DNA of 64,000 bases, from the NCBI RefSeq assembly GCF_000974425.1, contig NZ_CP010429.1:806001-870000 (forward strand), written 5' to 3'. The notes beneath the pieces were generated by a model that saw only the letters and a program-made list of their open reading frames with translations, did not search any database and was not told the origin of the DNA. Within the stretch, counting starts at the first letter, position 1, and each line of letters begins with the position of its first letter. Shown piece after piece: positions 43,702 to 52,795 of the stretch. Source of the stretch: Spirosoma radiotolerans. Its GTDB lineage: Bacteria; Bacteroidota; Bacteroidia; Cytophagales; Spirosomataceae. Position numbers and translations under genes: made by a program.

Positions 43702-44757
43702 TTATACATCAGCCTGAATCTTAAGCCCGATATCGCCACTCAGTAGCTCCTGAGAAAAAACTGAGTCGTGAACCACCTGAGAGCGATCTTTGATCAGTTT
43801 TGATTTCTGAAAAAAGACCTGAGCAACCTCATCATGGTTTAGCTTCTCAAAATGCTGCCCCAGACGAGTTAGCAGCATCGTCGTCTCTTCAAGCCCTTGC
43901 ATCGCCTGCCAGAGGATGGCTTCTACATTTGTCGTAACTTCCGATAAAAGCGCGCTAATCGTATACGCATGCCCGGTATGGCAGCGGAACCGGATAATGT
44001 TGCCTTCTTTGAGTTGTGTAAGGGCTCCATGACATTCAGGACAGGTAAAAGGCGTTAACTCGCCCATGTCAATAATACCCATTTCAAAGGCGTTGTCCTT
44101 ACCAGCGATAACAATCTCCATTTCCAGAAGCTTGAGCTCTCTCTTGGTCAATTTGATTGTCGGCCTGGTGGGTTCAGCCGTTAGTTGTGCTAGCAAGGCC
44201 GCCATCTGGCTCGCCGGAAGGGAGTGGTCAACCTCTACCTGCTCCTGCACATTGAGCGGCATTTGTGGAAATAAGGCGTCTTCTGGCTGCTGAATCATCG
44301 TTAAACCACCAAGGCGTTTGACAGACCAAAGGCCAGACGTACCGTCATCCAGAACCCCAGACAAGACAATGCCAATCACGCGGGAACCATAGGTATAGGC
44401 CGCTGAGCGAAACAGCGCATCGACAGAGGGTCGGAATCTGTTCTCTTTCGGCCCTCGCTTTACACCTATTTTACCGTCCTCCACCAGCAGGTGATGATCC
44501 GGAGAAGCTACGTAAATTTTCCCCGGTTCGATAAGCTCACCATCCTTTGCGATAGTCGCCGGTAGGGGACCTAACCGATTGAGAATTTGGTGTAGATTAC
44601 TAACAGAGTAAGGGGGAATATGCTGGACAATCAAAATAGCTGCTGGAAAATTTGGTGGTAAAGCCGCTACAATCTCCATTAAGGCGGGTAGGCCTCCAGC
44701 TGAAGAGCCAATAATAACAATATCGCGCTTAACTGTTTTTTGGGTTGATTTTTCCAT
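43702..44757 (-). CDS. stand-alone CheB-type methylesterase with zinc ribbon
   Basis: 351 residues. The CheB catalytic domain is complete: [16 protein letters not shown] with the nucleophilic Ser at about residue 19, VQHIPP with the His, and GVLDDGTSG with the Asp. There is no receiver domain. After the catalytic part comes a zinc-ribbon-like segment (CPECH ... CHTGH, about residues 239-263) and a helical tail. It would remove methyl groups from chemoreceptors or a related protein, but no chemotaxis genes are near. Confidence 0.9.
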
Positions 44758-47793: not shown

Positions 47794-48687
47794 TTACTTA
47801 CTGACGACAATCGTCCAGTCTGGCCCGCTGAATACCTTATATTTGTCCGAAAAATTACCCTGGTTTACTGCAATGGAGAAATTCAGCAGGCTGTTGATAT
47901 AGCCAACATCGTCGCCAGTAGGGGCTTCCCCAAAGGTGTTGACCAGCAGAACACGCCTGTCGTAGCGAATATCGTTTTTATGGAAAACCTGAACGTGTAG
48001 GGTTTCGCCATGCTTAACGCCTAACTGGTCGATCATAGCTTTAGGGATATTGCTCCAGACATTGCCGTACTGAACGTCGAGAACAGGGATGTTTCCTTTC
48101 ACCACTCCTTTCTCATTGACCGCTTTCTGGTAAGGAAGGCGAACAACGTCGGCGGCTAACGTGGGGCCTACCTGTGCAAACGTAATGGTTTTGGAAGCCA
48201 GACGAGCGGCTGTATACGCATAGACATCGCGACCATGAAACGTATACGATGCGCCTGAATTTTTGAGCCGGTTAATGGCTTCATCAATCTGTCGGATTTC
48301 CTGAATGCCGAGGTGTTCGGCAATCAATGTGAGTGTGCCGTTATCGGGGGTGACGATGTAGTGCCCAGATTTCGTGAGCAGTACAACTGAACGCCGTTCG
48401 GTACCTACGCCGGGATCGCATACAGACACAAATATAGTACCTTTCGGATAATAGGGTACAGTTTGGTGGAGTCGATAGGCAGCTTCCCAGATGTTGTAGG
48501 GCGGAATCTCATGGGTAAGGTCCAGCAGCGTGAGACTTGGCGATACGCCCACCGCCACTCCTTTCATCGCCGATACTGCTCCGTCTTTCAGGCCAAAGTC
48601 AGACTGAAAAACCACGATGCCATTTTGCGCGCTGACCAGCGGCAGAACGAACAAGACAAAAAGAATCGAACTGTAAAGAGACCGCAT
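47794..48687 (-). CDS. SAM hydroxide adenosyltransferase (DUF62 family) with signal peptide
   Basis: 297 residues. A clear signal peptide (SSILFVLFVLPLVSA, cleavage about residue 20) leads into the family start IVVFQSDFGLKDGAVSAMKG. The catalytic triad is recognisable: Asp and Arg 7 residues apart in CDPGVGTERR, and His in TFHGRD. Such enzymes hydrolyse S-adenosylmethionine to adenosine and methionine. Most members are cytoplasmic, so an exported version is unusual, since SAM is not normally found in the periplasm. Same strand as the rhodopsin gene, 74 bp downstream. Confidence 0.9.
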   Translation of the reverse strand: MRSLYSSILFVLFVLPLVSAQNGIVVFQSDFGLKDGAVSAMKGVAVGVSPSLTLLDLTHEIPPYNIWEAAYRLHQTVPYYPKGTIFVSVCDPGVGTERRSVVLLTKSGHYIVTPDNGTLTLIAEHLGIQEIRQIDEAINRLKNSGASYTFHGRDVYAYTAARLASKTITFAQVGPTLAADVVRLPYQKAVNEKGVVKGNIPVLDVQYGNVWSNIPKAMIDQLGVKHGETLHVQVFHKNDIRYDRRVLLVNTFGEAPTGDDVGYINSLLNFSIAVNQGNFSDKYKVFSGPDWTIVVSK

Positions 48688-48761: not shown

Positions 48762-49568
48762 TCATTCGTTTGTGGGGTTGACAGTCAGGGGCGCGAAGGA
48801 AATGATCAGGCCTATCCCGATTTTAGTACTAACATCGGCAATCGTGTAGGCTATATGAATCCAATTAAAGTCAATAGCAGTGCATGTCAGAAAGTAGCCA
48901 AGGGGATAAATAACCCCCAAAATACCAAGTGCGTAGGCAATCTGCCGATATTTAAAAGACAAATCAGGCTGTGCCTGGCTGATAAGCTGCTTCCAGAGCT
49001 TGACTAAGGTGTGCAGAACAACACCATACCCAAGCATGGCAATGGCTCCCCACACCAATTTGGGACCGACCTGGATTTCGTTATCAAAAGCGAGTTGTTG
49101 ATGGCCAATATAGCTCGTTAATACCATAAAGAAACTGCCTGCTACCAATCGGGTCAGTATCTGTGTACGAATAGCTGGCTGAAGTTTGGTCACTAAAGCC
49201 ACCTGAATCAATAGCAGTGGAATGGTGATTGCCCAATCCATATAGCGAAATTGGCCAATGGCGTTGTATGACTCGCGTATGAGTACCTGCCTGTCGCTAG
49301 GATTGGCTACCGTTACCAGGTCGGCCAGCAGATCGTGGTAATAGCCTTGAATTCGGTAATAAGAGAGACCGGAGATGGCCGCCACAATAGCAGTCAGAAG
49401 AGGGGCTAGATTCTGGGCCTGGTGTAACGGTATACCTGGGCGTGAGGCCAGCGCAAAAATGAATGTACCCAGAAAACTATACGTAGCCACGATCAGCAGA
49501 AAGTACGTGACTAACGGAAAAACACCAACGACGCCCGCCGTTGGAACAAAAGAATCAGCTATTTCCAT
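48762..49568 (-). CDS. microbial rhodopsin with Asp-Thr-Gln motif
   Basis: 268 residues from the ATG at 49568; an upstream TTG at 49622 keeps the frame open but adds nothing family-like. Seven helices. Helix C reads RYMDWAITIPLLLIQ: Arg108, Asp111, Thr115 and Gln122 stand at bacteriorhodopsin positions 82, 85, 89 and 96. Helix G reads ADVSTK, with Asp245 and the retinal lysine Lys249 (positions 212 and 216). Helix E reads LVWGAI, putting Gly174 at position 138. Helix F has Gly218 at position 182 and Tyr221-Pro222. It should bind retinal. Whether it pumps protons, another ion, or senses light is open. No retinal-synthesis gene is near. Confidence 0.88.
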   Translation of the reverse strand: MEIADSFVPTAGVVGVFPLVTYFLLIVATYSFLGTFIFALASRPGIPLHQAQNLAPLLTAIVAAISGLSYYRIQGYYHDLLADLVTVANPSDRQVLIRESYNAIGQFRYMDWAITIPLLLIQVALVTKLQPAIRTQILTRLVAGSFFMVLTSYIGHQQLAFDNEIQVGPKLVWGAIAMLGYGVVLHTLVKLWKQLISQAQPDLSFKYRQIAYALGILGVIYPLGYFLTCTAIDFNWIHIAYTIADVSTKIGIGLIISFAPLTVNPTNE

Positions 49569-49631
49569 GAATGCAATAACGTTAGTAACCTCAAAACTAA
49601 CGCTACTGCATTCATGGCGCAATGGTAAAGC

Positions 49632-50552: not shown

Positions 50553-51860
50553 TTACAACCGAATAATCTCGGCGCCAATGGCATTGAGTCGCGTATCGAT
50601 GTTTTGGTAACCCCGGTCAATCTGTTCGATGTTGTCGATGATACTGGTTCCCTGCGCCGACATGGCCGCAATGAGCAGCGCCACACCCGCCCGGATGTCT
50701 GGCGAGGACATCCGAATGCCCTTGAGCGGAATCTGCCGGTTTAGCCCGACAACAGTTGCGCGGTGCGGATCGCAAAGAATGATTTGGGCACCCATGTCAA
50801 TCAGCTTGTCGACAAAGAAAAGCCGGCTTTCAAACATTTTCTGGTGAATCAGCAGGGTGCCTTGCGCCTGAACGGCCGTAACAAGGACAATACTTAACAG
50901 ATCGGGAGTGAAGCCTGGCCAGGGTGAATCGGCAACGGTCATCATGCCGCCGTCCAGAAAGCTTTCGATTTGGTAGCGCTCCTGAGCTGGAATGAAGATG
51001 TCGTCACCCCGAAACTCCATTTGAATACCTAACCGCTTAAACTGATCGGGAATAATGCCTAACTCAGGAATCTGGCAGTTCTTGATCGTTATCTCCGACT
51101 GGGTCATGGCGGCAAGACCAATGAACGAGCCAATCTCAATCATATCGGGGAGCATCGTATGCTCTGTCCCTGTCAGCTCCGACACACCTTCAATGGTGAG
51201 CAGATTAGAGCCTACACCTGTAATCTTAGCACCCATTGAATTGAGCATTTTACTCAACTGCTGAAGATAGGGCTCGCAGGCCGCGTTGTAAATCTGCGTT
51301 GTTCCTTCGGCCATAACGGCGGCCATGAGCACGTTGGCCGTACCGGTTACGGATGCTTCATCGAGCAGCATGTACGTGCCGCGTAAATTACTGGCATCTA
51401 CCTGGTAATAACCGCCATCGTTGGCATCGTAATTGAATTGAGCACCGAGTTTTTCGAAACCCAAAAAGTGGGTATCCAGGCGACGGCGGCCAATCTTATC
51501 GCCACCAGGCCGCGGAATACGCCCTTTTTTAAACCGGGCAAGCATCGGTCCAAGCAACATGACAGACCCCCGAAGGGCAGCTGCTTTGCGCTTGTAGGTA
51601 TCCGTTTCGAGGTAGTCGAGGTTAACGTCGCTGGCCTGAAAGCGGTATGAACTTTCGCCAATCTTGGTAACCCATACGCCTAAATCGCCAAGCAGATCGA
51701 TGAGTTGATTAACATCCCGAATGCCCGGAATATTGTGAATGGTAATGGGGTCTTTGGTCAGTAATACGGCACAGAGAATTTGTAGCGCTTCGTTCTTAGC
51801 GCCCTGCGGATTTAGTTCACCCTTTAGTTTGCGCCCGCCTGTGATTTGAAAAGATGCCAT
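50553..51860 (-). CDS. murA: UDP-N-acetylglucosamine 1-carboxyvinyltransferase
   Basis: 435 residues. ASFQITGGRKLKGELNPQGAKNEALQILCA is the N-terminal EPT fold. PRPGGDKIGRRRLDTHFLGFEKLGAQ carries the substrate loop, where many MurA proteins have a reactive Cys; here the loop has no Cys (PGGDKIG), an arrangement usually linked to fosfomycin tolerance. It transfers enolpyruvate from PEP to UDP-GlcNAc, the first committed step of peptidoglycan synthesis. Cytoplasmic. The intergenic hairpin and DUF4290 gene lie upstream. Confidence 0.93.
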   Translation of the reverse strand: MASFQITGGRKLKGELNPQGAKNEALQILCAVLLTKDPITIHNIPGIRDVNQLIDLLGDLGVWVTKIGESSYRFQASDVNLDYLETDTYKRKAAALRGSVMLLGPMLARFKKGRIPRPGGDKIGRRRLDTHFLGFEKLGAQFNYDANDGGYYQVDASNLRGTYMLLDEASVTGTANVLMAAVMAEGTTQIYNAACEPYLQQLSKMLNSMGAKITGVGSNLLTIEGVSELTGTEHTMLPDMIEIGSFIGLAAMTQSEITIKNCQIPELGIIPDQFKRLGIQMEFRGDDIFIPAQERYQIESFLDGGMMTVADSPWPGFTPDLLSIVLVTAVQAQGTLLIHQKMFESRLFFVDKLIDMGAQIILCDPHRATVVGLNRQIPLKGIRMSSPDIRAGVALLIAAMSAQGTSIIDNIEQIDRGYQNIDTRLNAIGAEIIRL

Positions 51861-51946: not shown

Positions 51947-52795
51947 CTACCGCCGTCTGCGAGGTGGCCCGTCATTACGTGACCCGTTATCGCGTGGTCC
52001 GCCATCGCGTGGTCCGCCATCGCGTGGTCCGCCATCGCGGTCATTGCGATTCCGGTTGCCAAAATTACGCTGTGAGCCATCGTTCCGGTTGTTTGACCGT
52101 CCCTGCTGGCCATTCCCGCCATCCCGGTTCCGATCATTCCGGTTATTATTGTTGCGAGCTCCGTTGTCCCGGTCGTTCCGGCGCCCCTGTTGCCCAATGC
52201 CGCCTTCCCGGTTTCGGTCATTCCGGTAATTGTTATTGACGATACGCTGAGGCTGATCGCCAGTACGCTCACGGGGCGTTGCTTCAACAAGCCCTTCTTC
52301 CCGAATGAGTTTTATGTCGTCGTAGAGTTTACCGTTCGAGAGTTCGATCAGGCTTTGATAAATCGTTTCGTCTTCAACGGACTCTTTGTTCCACGCCTGA
52401 TAGAAGGTACGCATCAAGCGCGTCAGGTAGGAAACAAAGGCACGTCGCTCTTCGGGCTCTTCCAGCGAAACAGCCTTAGCGATCAGTAAATCTACATTTC
52501 GGCCGAAATGTTTAAACTTCAGGTGATGCGTATTATAAGGAACCCGTTGCGGTTTTTTGCCCAGCGCTTCTTCCGATGGGGGCGGATAAGGGCTGTCGAC
52601 ATCGAGGGTAAAGTTGGACATAATATACAGGTCGTCCCACAATTTATTGTAGTAGTCCTGACCATCCTTCATGTTCGGATGGATTTGCCGCATCAACTCG
52701 ATCAGGATATGTGCATACCGAGTTCGGGTTGAGCGATCGTCAATGTTGACCATGTTGTCAACTAACTTTTGGATACTACTGCCGTATTCTTTCAA
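51947..52795 (-). CDS. DUF4290 protein with Arg/Gly/Asn/Asp-rich tail
   Basis: About 282 residues from a TTG at 52795 (LKEYGSSIQKLVDNM), chosen because it gives the family's usual beginning and because the promoter lies just upstream; a 34-residue extension to an ATG at 52897 would precede that promoter. The helical DUF4290 domain (about 1-160: RTRYAHILIELMRQIHPNMKDGQDYYNKLWDDLYIM) is found throughout Bacteroidota, function unknown. The last 100 residues are a disordered RND/RGG-like repeat ending PPRRRR, suggesting RNA or protein contact. Confidence 0.82.
   Translation of the reverse strand: MKEYGSSIQKLVDNMVNIDDRSTRTRYAHILIELMRQIHPNMKDGQDYYNKLWDDLYIMSNFTLDVDSPYPPPSEEALGKKPQRVPYNTHHLKFKHFGRNVDLLIAKAVSLEEPEERRAFVSYLTRLMRTFYQAWNKESVEDETIYQSLIELSNGKLYDDIKLIREEGLVEATPRERTGDQPQRIVNNNYRNDRNREGGIGQQGRRNDRDNGARNNNNRNDRNRDGGNGQQGRSNNRNDGSQRNFGNRNRNDRDGGPRDGGPRDGGPRDNGSRNDGPPRRRR
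51991..52035. repeat. three exact 15-bp tandem repeats inside the DUF4290 tail
   Basis: Three exact copies of CGCGTGGTCCGCCAT (51991-52005, 52006-52020, 52021-52035) with partial copies at both ends. They encode Gly-Pro-Arg-Asp-Gly units in the disordered tail. Confidence 0.95.

Follow-up and report, generated by a model that had tools for sequence, protein, structure and literature searches.

The window analysed here, a stretch of 64,000 nucleotides from the genome of Spirosoma radiotolerans, encodes a rhodopsin (the query) that lies directly downstream of a gene for a DUF305/DUF4142-like protein, with a hairpin between the two genes (Table 1). A Bac_rhodopsin profile match, seven helices and a retinal lysine on helix G identify the query as a microbial (type 1) rhodopsin; the accompanying list of PDB matches is a re-view of Foldseek's own matches. 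All residues named in a preliminary description of this DNA lie where it placed them in the 268-residue minus-strand protein, namely Asp111, Thr115 and Gln122 (Asp-Thr-Gln, or DTQ, at bacteriorhodopsin [BR] positions 85, 89 and 96), Gly174, Gly218, Asp245 and Lys249. Its view that a carboxylic proton donor is missing also stands, as Gln122 occupies the site where xanthorhodopsin and proteorhodopsin proton pumps (DTE/DTD) carry a carboxylate and Lys-donor DTK pumps carry a lysine. The histidine partner of the counterion (PR H75) is likewise missing and Ser69 is found instead; this position is serine in 94 and histidine in 0 of the 120 homologues listed. The retinal lysine, whose absence defines the Rh-noK and ORP proteins, is present as Lys249.

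Table 1. Positions of the rhodopsin gene, its key codons and neighbouring features in the window
Feature	Position	Strand	Remarks
SAM hydroxide adenosyltransferase (SAM hydrolase)	47794..48687	-	Downstream neighbour; conserved slot
Rhodopsin, 268 aa, DUF305-linked Spirosoma group	48762..49568	-	DTQ, Gly174, Gly218, Lys249
Lys249 codon (retinal lysine, BR K216)	48822..48824	-	
Asp245 codon (BR D212)	48834..48836	-	Asp in 119/120 listed homologues
Gly218 codon (BR W182)	48915..48917	-	
Gly174 codon (BR W138, carotenoid-fenestration glycine)	49047..49049	-	Position computed
Gln122 codon (BR D96, donor site)	49203..49205	-	Position computed
Asp111 codon (BR D85)	49236..49238	-	
22-bp hairpin, arms 49617-49596 and 49586-49565	49565..49617	-	3' arm holds the rhodopsin start codon
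DUF305/DUF4142-like gene (putative lipoprotein), 218 aa	49632..50288	-	Directly upstream of rhodopsin; Pfam, synteny
EPSP synthase family gene	50553..51860	-	Edge of conserved slot
CheB-type methylesterase gene	43702-44757	-	
DUF4290 protein, C-terminal tail	51947-52290	-	

The genes next to the rhodopsin are the DUF305-like gene, a SAM hydrolase, an ABC transporter and an EPSP synthase family gene, here called murA, a name of our own choosing; no flotillin gene is found next door. No HAMP/MCP transducer gene occurs among the eight neighbours scanned (43.7-54.3 kb). The CheB-type methylesterase gene lies about 4 kb from the rhodopsin, beyond an opposite-strand ABC gene, and no receptor gene was found among the neighbours scanned. 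The C-terminal tail of the DUF4290 protein is of low complexity, rich in Arg, Asn, Gly and Asp, with tandem GGPRD-like repeats.

Our protein search listed the best 120 of 148 homologues, the query counted among them. The commonest state at the positions compared is DTK with Gly138, Trp182, Asp212 and Lys216 (45/120 listed). DTQ with the retinal lysine occurs in 27 of the 120, and the exact set of the query (DTQ, Gly138, Gly182, Asp212, Lys216) in 12, including the query itself and one fragment, in agreement with the earlier judgement that the combination is uncommon. The retinal lysine is replaced in 41 of the 120 listed homologues, mostly by Q, I, V, L or Y, with a gap in one more. At least seven Spirosoma entries that carry the label 'bacteriorhodopsin' lack this lysine (P0031, P0050, P0059, P0069, P0074, P0082 and P0085).

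A search covering 222 genomes from the family and 390 taken from the larger order group placed these states in a genomic setting. A rhodopsin gene linked to a DUF305-like neighbour is present in 29 of 36 Spirosoma genomes: 16 copies retain the lysine (7 DTQ, 3 DTK, 3 DTT, 2 ETN and 1 DTH), 12 intact copies do not, and one is interrupted. The interrupted copy (G032:C1:3900368-3909027) is a lysine-less orthologue broken by an in-frame stop, and the gene seems to be decaying in that lineage after the loss of the retinal lysine. Twelve further genomic relatives are of the Asp-Thr-Lys type, four from Spirosoma, two from other Spirosomataceae and six from genomes that we call Hymenobacter-like after the names of homologues in the protein search; some of the twelve are close relatives. 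Three genomes (G013, G018 and G025) hold DUF305-linked rhodopsins of the DTT type; each of these genomes also encodes a carotenoid oxygenase and another rhodopsin copy, of the DTK type. A divergent rhodopsin in another genome (G012:C1:930927-939571) reads D-T-S with a residue other than Asp at BR212, where its alignment may be off; it has a strong upstream hairpin (z -5.5) though it is not DUF305-linked.

Genomic context was compared across the 40 intact genomic relatives. In 28 of these, all from Spirosoma, the DUF305-like gene lies immediately upstream on the same strand across a gap of 56-81 nt. A murA-type gene stands beside the pair in 18 of the 28 loci, the window included, and an ABC transporter as well in 16; in the other 10 the pair is intact and the murA, SAM-hydrolase and ABC genes do not fall within flanks of roughly 4 kb. 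The 12 relatives without the link form one Asp-Thr-Lys clade (support 98/96), and their flanks, covered over about 4 kb for four loci and 1.5 kb for eight, gave no DUF305-like match. We use 'DUF305-linked' as a definition by neighbour gene and not as a clade, and one linked copy (G023) falls with the Asp-Thr-Lys clade in the tree.

From its sequence the DUF305-like neighbour looks like a lipoprotein, with residues A24, C25, A26 and Q27 each kept in at least 27 of 28 orthologues. We rejected its assignment as a CopM/DUF305 metallochaperone, as its score of 75.1 bits lies under the NCBIfam CopM cut-off of 90; neither His79 nor His172, which we regard as candidate metal ligands, is kept in as many as 27 of the 28 orthologues. 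A presence and absence pattern tracking that of the rhodopsin was also rejected, as the DUF305-like gene occurs in 36 of the 36 Spirosoma genomes searched, including the seven without a query-type rhodopsin. In those seven an ABC gene lies near the DUF305-like gene in every case and murA in five. The DUF305-like gene thus has a role of its own and the rhodopsin is an optional member of the slot, with adjacency as the only link between the two.

The hairpin between the two genes is a conserved feature of this slot. The query hairpin (z -5.76) has no Rfam match and is unique in its genome, and all 28 orthologues have a hairpin at the equivalent place (shuffle z -2.5 to -9.6). The median for 20 control intergenic gaps, taken from a crude ORF call, was z -0.4, and of these gaps seven match or exceed the weakest rhodopsin hairpin in folding stability and two the median one. 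Among the 16 of 28 orthologues that align, 10 of the 22 pairs have changed on both sides, and this covariation signal is lost when the partner is slid by one to three columns. Upstream of the 12 Asp-Thr-Lys genes the hairpin is weak or absent (z -2.5 to 1.1).

In the rhodopsin-free genomes a hairpin of z -3.4 or stronger follows the stop of the DUF305-like gene in six of seven cases, the seventh giving z -1.5. A riboswitch or thermometer specific to the rhodopsin was therefore rejected, since DUF305-like genes without a rhodopsin also end in a hairpin. For the same reason the element is probably the terminator of the upstream gene, grown over the next start codon in the query's relatives. A run of at least five T abuts the start codon in 12 of the 28 rhodopsin-bearing loci, in keeping with a terminator. 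Against that reading, the hairpin of the query lacks a T run, and a consensus scan does not include it among terminator-like elements. A terminator hairpin lying over the start codon should lower rhodopsin expression as a translational barrier, and with a terminator-like element between them the two genes are less likely to be simply co-transcribed. The loop of the query hairpin also contains a TAnnTTTG element, spotted by eye and not shared by all orthologues, which we take to be a Bacteroidetes-type -7 element.

The preliminary description had named a beta-carotene cleavage enzyme as a check, and the single-contig genome of the query yielded neither Blh (PF15461) nor a carotenoid oxygenase of the RPE65 type (PF03055). 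Any retinal would thus have to be taken up from outside or made by an unrecognised route, unless the protein has none. The genome does contain a lycopene-cyclase-like gene (PF05834, 7.6e-52), and 35 of 36 Spirosoma genomes give strong matches of nearly full length (the best in G025 is 3.3e-5); this family also matches 10 of 14 control genomes, including E. coli, and only strong full-length matches were counted. Such matches suggest that cyclic carotenoids are likely made. Blh was found in 10 of 36 Spirosoma genomes, always within about 400 bases of a different rhodopsin of the DTE or NDQ type, a carotenoid oxygenase in six, and either enzyme in 14. A retinal enzyme is present in 8 of 16 genomes with lysine-bearing linked copies versus 1 of 12 with lysine-less ones (Fisher p 0.039, relatedness ignored). 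Among genomes with the Asp-Thr-Lys type, Blh occurs in eight of eight outside Spirosoma, next to the rhodopsin in four of the six Hymenobacter-like ones, while three of the four Spirosoma genomes carry a carotenoid oxygenase and the fourth (G016) neither enzyme.

The preliminary description had also proposed that Gly174 lets the protein hold a carotenoid antenna beside retinal, as a xanthorhodopsin-like protein with two chromophores. The glycine at BR138 and the likely presence of cyclic carotenoids fit this proposal. The other fenestration residues named for Kin4B8 are Thr157, Tyr204, Ser208 and Tyr209 (available text of PMC13093654). By our own mapping, anchored on a Tyr-Pro motif where the pairwise alignment is shifted, Tyr204 would be kept as Tyr225, in favour of the proposal, and the other three would correspond to Met178, Cys229 and Thr230, against it. 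The family comparison also speaks against the proposal: glycine at BR138 occurs in 118 of 120 listed homologues, and 11 of the 12 genomic orthologues without the lysine still have it, so that Gly174 is a family trait and cannot by itself signal an antenna. With a retinal source also absent from the genome, we consider a carotenoid antenna highly improbable.

The history of the retinal lysine was followed in trees built from the 40 genomic rows and 53 of the other 119 homologues listed, chosen by hand to cover diverse states; these cover the query family and Spirosoma DTE and NDQ outgroup rows only, leave aside the interrupted copy and, in the careful tree, also the NDQ-type outgroup row. In that careful tree, which has 96 rows and from which five trait columns were removed, the lysine state changes at least seven times, and eight losses are needed if loss is assumed to be irreversible. 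Grouping all lysine-less rows in one clade is rejected (log-likelihood 195 lower, p-AU 1.8e-40), with the caveat that this group was named after the first tree had been seen, by a trait whose columns were removed. Loss of the lysine goes together with loss of the counterion: Asp or Glu is present at BR85 in 52 of 52 lysine rows and lost in 40 of 41 lysine-less rows, although a test on D85/K216 by independent pairs has only four supported pairs, too few to reach 0.05. Of the lysine-less rows, 38 of 41 no longer have Pro186, and it is already missing from 6 of the 52 lysine rows. The 12 intact lysine-less genomic copies give an omega of 0.194, indicating purifying selection, beside 0.167 for the 16 lysine-bearing linked copies and 0.086 for the 12 Asp-Thr-Lys copies; all three values come from saturated divergences and are rough. 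By the topology we assigned, 32 of the 42 sites invariant in those 12 lysine-less copies lie in the outer third or the outer loops.

What is conserved appears to have moved from the pocket to the outer face. In the Asp-Thr-Lys clade (12 rows) the mean pairwise difference is 0.000 in the pocket, which is invariant in 12 of 12, and 0.479 in the outer loops; the corresponding values are 0.191 and 0.351 for the lysine-bearing linked proteins (16 rows) and 0.281 and 0.283 for the lysine-less ones (12 rows). By site permutation each of the two linked groups differs from the Asp-Thr-Lys clade with p of at most 0.0002, and this contrast is unchanged when sites 111, 218, 222 and 249 are removed. Lysine-bearing versus lysine-less linked proteins give p 0.017, and p 0.11 without those trait sites, so that the shift is supported for the linked proteins as a whole against the Asp-Thr-Lys clade, and not between linked proteins that differ in lysine state. 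The inner loops are more variable in the linked proteins (0.745 in lysine-bearing and 0.788 in lysine-less copies, versus 0.418 in the Asp-Thr-Lys clade). At thirteen positions the linked proteins hardly vary while the Asp-Thr-Lys clade does; these include Q94, R98, E99, F161, D162 and E164, which our assigned topology puts on the outer side. Because groups and sites were chosen after the tree and alignments had been seen, we treat this shift of constraint, read from sequence comparison, as a strong lead and not as the outcome of a test planned in advance.

The query's own clade comprises 19 distinct DTQ rows with a mean identity of 64% (support 100/93), and the rows branching next to it (P0019, P0022 and P0029) have lost the retinal lysine. 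Within the clade Gln at BR96 and Lys at BR216 are kept in 19 of 19 rows, and all nine sites of the Schiff-base core (BR 57, 82, 85, 86, 89, 185, 186, 212 and 216) are invariant, for which the chance is 1.6e-5, or 3.2e-5 when helix-matched. Five of these sites say little about retinal, each being kept in 39 or more of the 41 lysine-less rows too; for the four informative sites (BR 85, 89, 186 and 216, or 111, 115, 222 and 249 of the query) the chance is 0.008, helix-matched 0.014. Position BR182 is Gly in 11 rows, Ala in five, Leu in two and Ser in one, and never Trp, so the loss of Trp182 described earlier extends from Gly218 of the query to all 19 rows. This pattern suggests that retinal binding is probably still under selection in the query clade, in a pocket that has given up Trp182.

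A protein free of chromophore, in which the retinal site is a relic or the lysine structural and which serves together with the lipoprotein in membrane scaffolding or chemosensing, would explain why both retinal-forming enzymes are absent from a single-contig genome, and it accords with about eight independent lysine losses, with purifying selection on intact lysine-less copies and with the outer side being the most conserved part of the 12 such copies. An invariant Schiff-base core would be unexpected for a relic, and the query clade keeps the very four sites that lysine-less rows lose. On balance we find a chromophore-free query somewhat unlikely.

The same core would serve an outward proton pump of the DTQ type, driven by light and using retinal from the surroundings. 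The equivalents of Asp85, Thr89, Asp212 and Lys216 are present and invariant in the query clade, and four genomes of the clade (G007, G010, G026 and G027) contain Blh, so retinal is available there. The tryptophan at BR182 makes isomerisation efficient, and its loss throughout the clade weighs against a pump. In Gloeobacter rhodopsin, substitution of the equivalent residue cuts both quantum yield and pumping, W222L having a relative quantum yield of 0.34 versus wild type and W222F pumping at about 9% of wild type, according to the available text of PMC10510653. A DTQ motif is no obstacle in itself: a SAR11 proteorhodopsin of the DTQ-Q type is reported to acidify E. coli suspensions in light (available text of PMC5864233), which shows that DTQ alone does not rule out proton pumping. 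The query genome has no retinal enzyme, and in the four genomes that do have Blh it stands beside a DTE rhodopsin, next to which a second and poor pump would be redundant. We therefore judge pumping as the main function improbable.

Our preferred reading, to which we give a probability of roughly 0.45, is that the query is a protein still capable of carrying retinal, devoid of a proton donor, sensor-like or at most a very weak pump, that acts through its periplasmic face on scavenged retinal and stands a single step from relatives that do without retinal. It would still bind retinal or a close retinoid, obtained from outside or by an unrecognised route. Photoisomerisation would be of poor efficiency and the cycle slow, with pumping weak or nil. 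Selection would act on what the protein does at the periplasmic face, either passing on a conformational signal or playing a structural part, plausibly together with the DUF305-like lipoprotein; in the sister lineages this role would survive without retinal. No carotenoid antenna is needed. The weakest link of this preferred reading is the lipoprotein partner, and the missing retinal-forming enzyme counts against it, as it may mean that the query never carries retinal. So do the terminator-like hairpin between the genes and the presence of the DUF305-like gene in genomes without a query-type rhodopsin. The preliminary description had left the choice between a sensor and a non-standard pump; this alternative agrees with our reading, and the DTQ motif, being compatible with pumping (available text of PMC5864233), does not by itself mark a departure from a pump.

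More broadly, and as tentatively, the DUF305-linked proteins may represent a transition from rhodopsin to non-rhodopsin in progress within a single genus, in which the selected function has shifted away from light-driven transport to the periplasmic face, retinal has been repeatedly discarded, and the query clade is an intermediate. In the boldest form of this proposal, the small residues at 182 and 138 would leave room for some chromophore that is not retinal, for instance an apocarotenoid that the strain makes without Blh. Lysine-less opsins are known as end products, and the route that leads to them from a light-driven pump is much less clear. Here living orthologues of one gene show losses of the donor, of Trp182, of Pro186 and of Asp85 jointly with Lys216. 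Since the losses are distributed among these orthologues, and 18 of the 28 stand next to the same murA-type gene, the order of the steps and the function retained are directly testable. Two warnings for annotation also follow: a glycine at the antenna position is no evidence of an antenna, and the label 'bacteriorhodopsin' can cover proteins without the retinal lysine.

Comparison with known systems sets these features in context. Rhodopsins have been reported from the genus before, an NDQ sodium-pump-type protein in S. oryzae (available text of PMC7979833) and, in S. linguale, a rhodopsin gene of unspecified type (available text of PMC5877348); in the literature outside subscription journals and preprints we found no paper on query-type proteins of Spirosoma or on a DUF305-rhodopsin pair. 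The closest relatives of another type, the Asp-Thr-Lys rhodopsins of Hymenobacter-like genomes and Spirosoma, align over their full length at 38-48% identity and share Gly138 and many outer-loop residues with the query. They differ in having Lys at 96, Trp182 and an invariant pocket, and in lacking both a DUF305 neighbour in the flanks examined and a comparable upstream hairpin, both of which the query has. Their functional analogues, by virtue of a putative lysine donor, are ESR (Exiguobacterium sibiricum rhodopsin) and E17R, with Lys at 96/97 (available text of PMC4871484). The xanthorhodopsin-type pumps (psXR, Gloeobacter rhodopsin and Kin4B8) are more distant, at 22-25% identity, and the query lacks the carboxylic donor, the His partner and the Trp182 that they possess.

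Loss of the retinal lysine, as seen in the query's close relatives, has precedents. Lysine-less opsins are described from haloarchaea and fungi in PMC4915679, whose main text mentions none of Bacteroidetes, Spirosoma and Hymenobacter, and, in the available text of PMC10308929, from betaproteobacteria and among freshwater flotillin-associated rhodopsins. In contrast to the Rh-noK proteins of betaproteobacteria and the ORPs of haloarchaea, the query keeps its lysine, and loss has occurred about eight times inside one gene family of one genus. What is new here is this repeated and graded loss inside a single gene family, with the query as an intermediate that retains the lysine. A further parallel is offered by the FArhodopsins, described from Pelagibacterales, HIMB59 and Gammaproteobacteria (available text of PMC10308929), which like the query family are rhodopsin paralogues tied to a conserved neighbour and partly suspected to be free of retinal; their neighbour is a flotillin, whereas that of the query is the DUF305-like lipoprotein.
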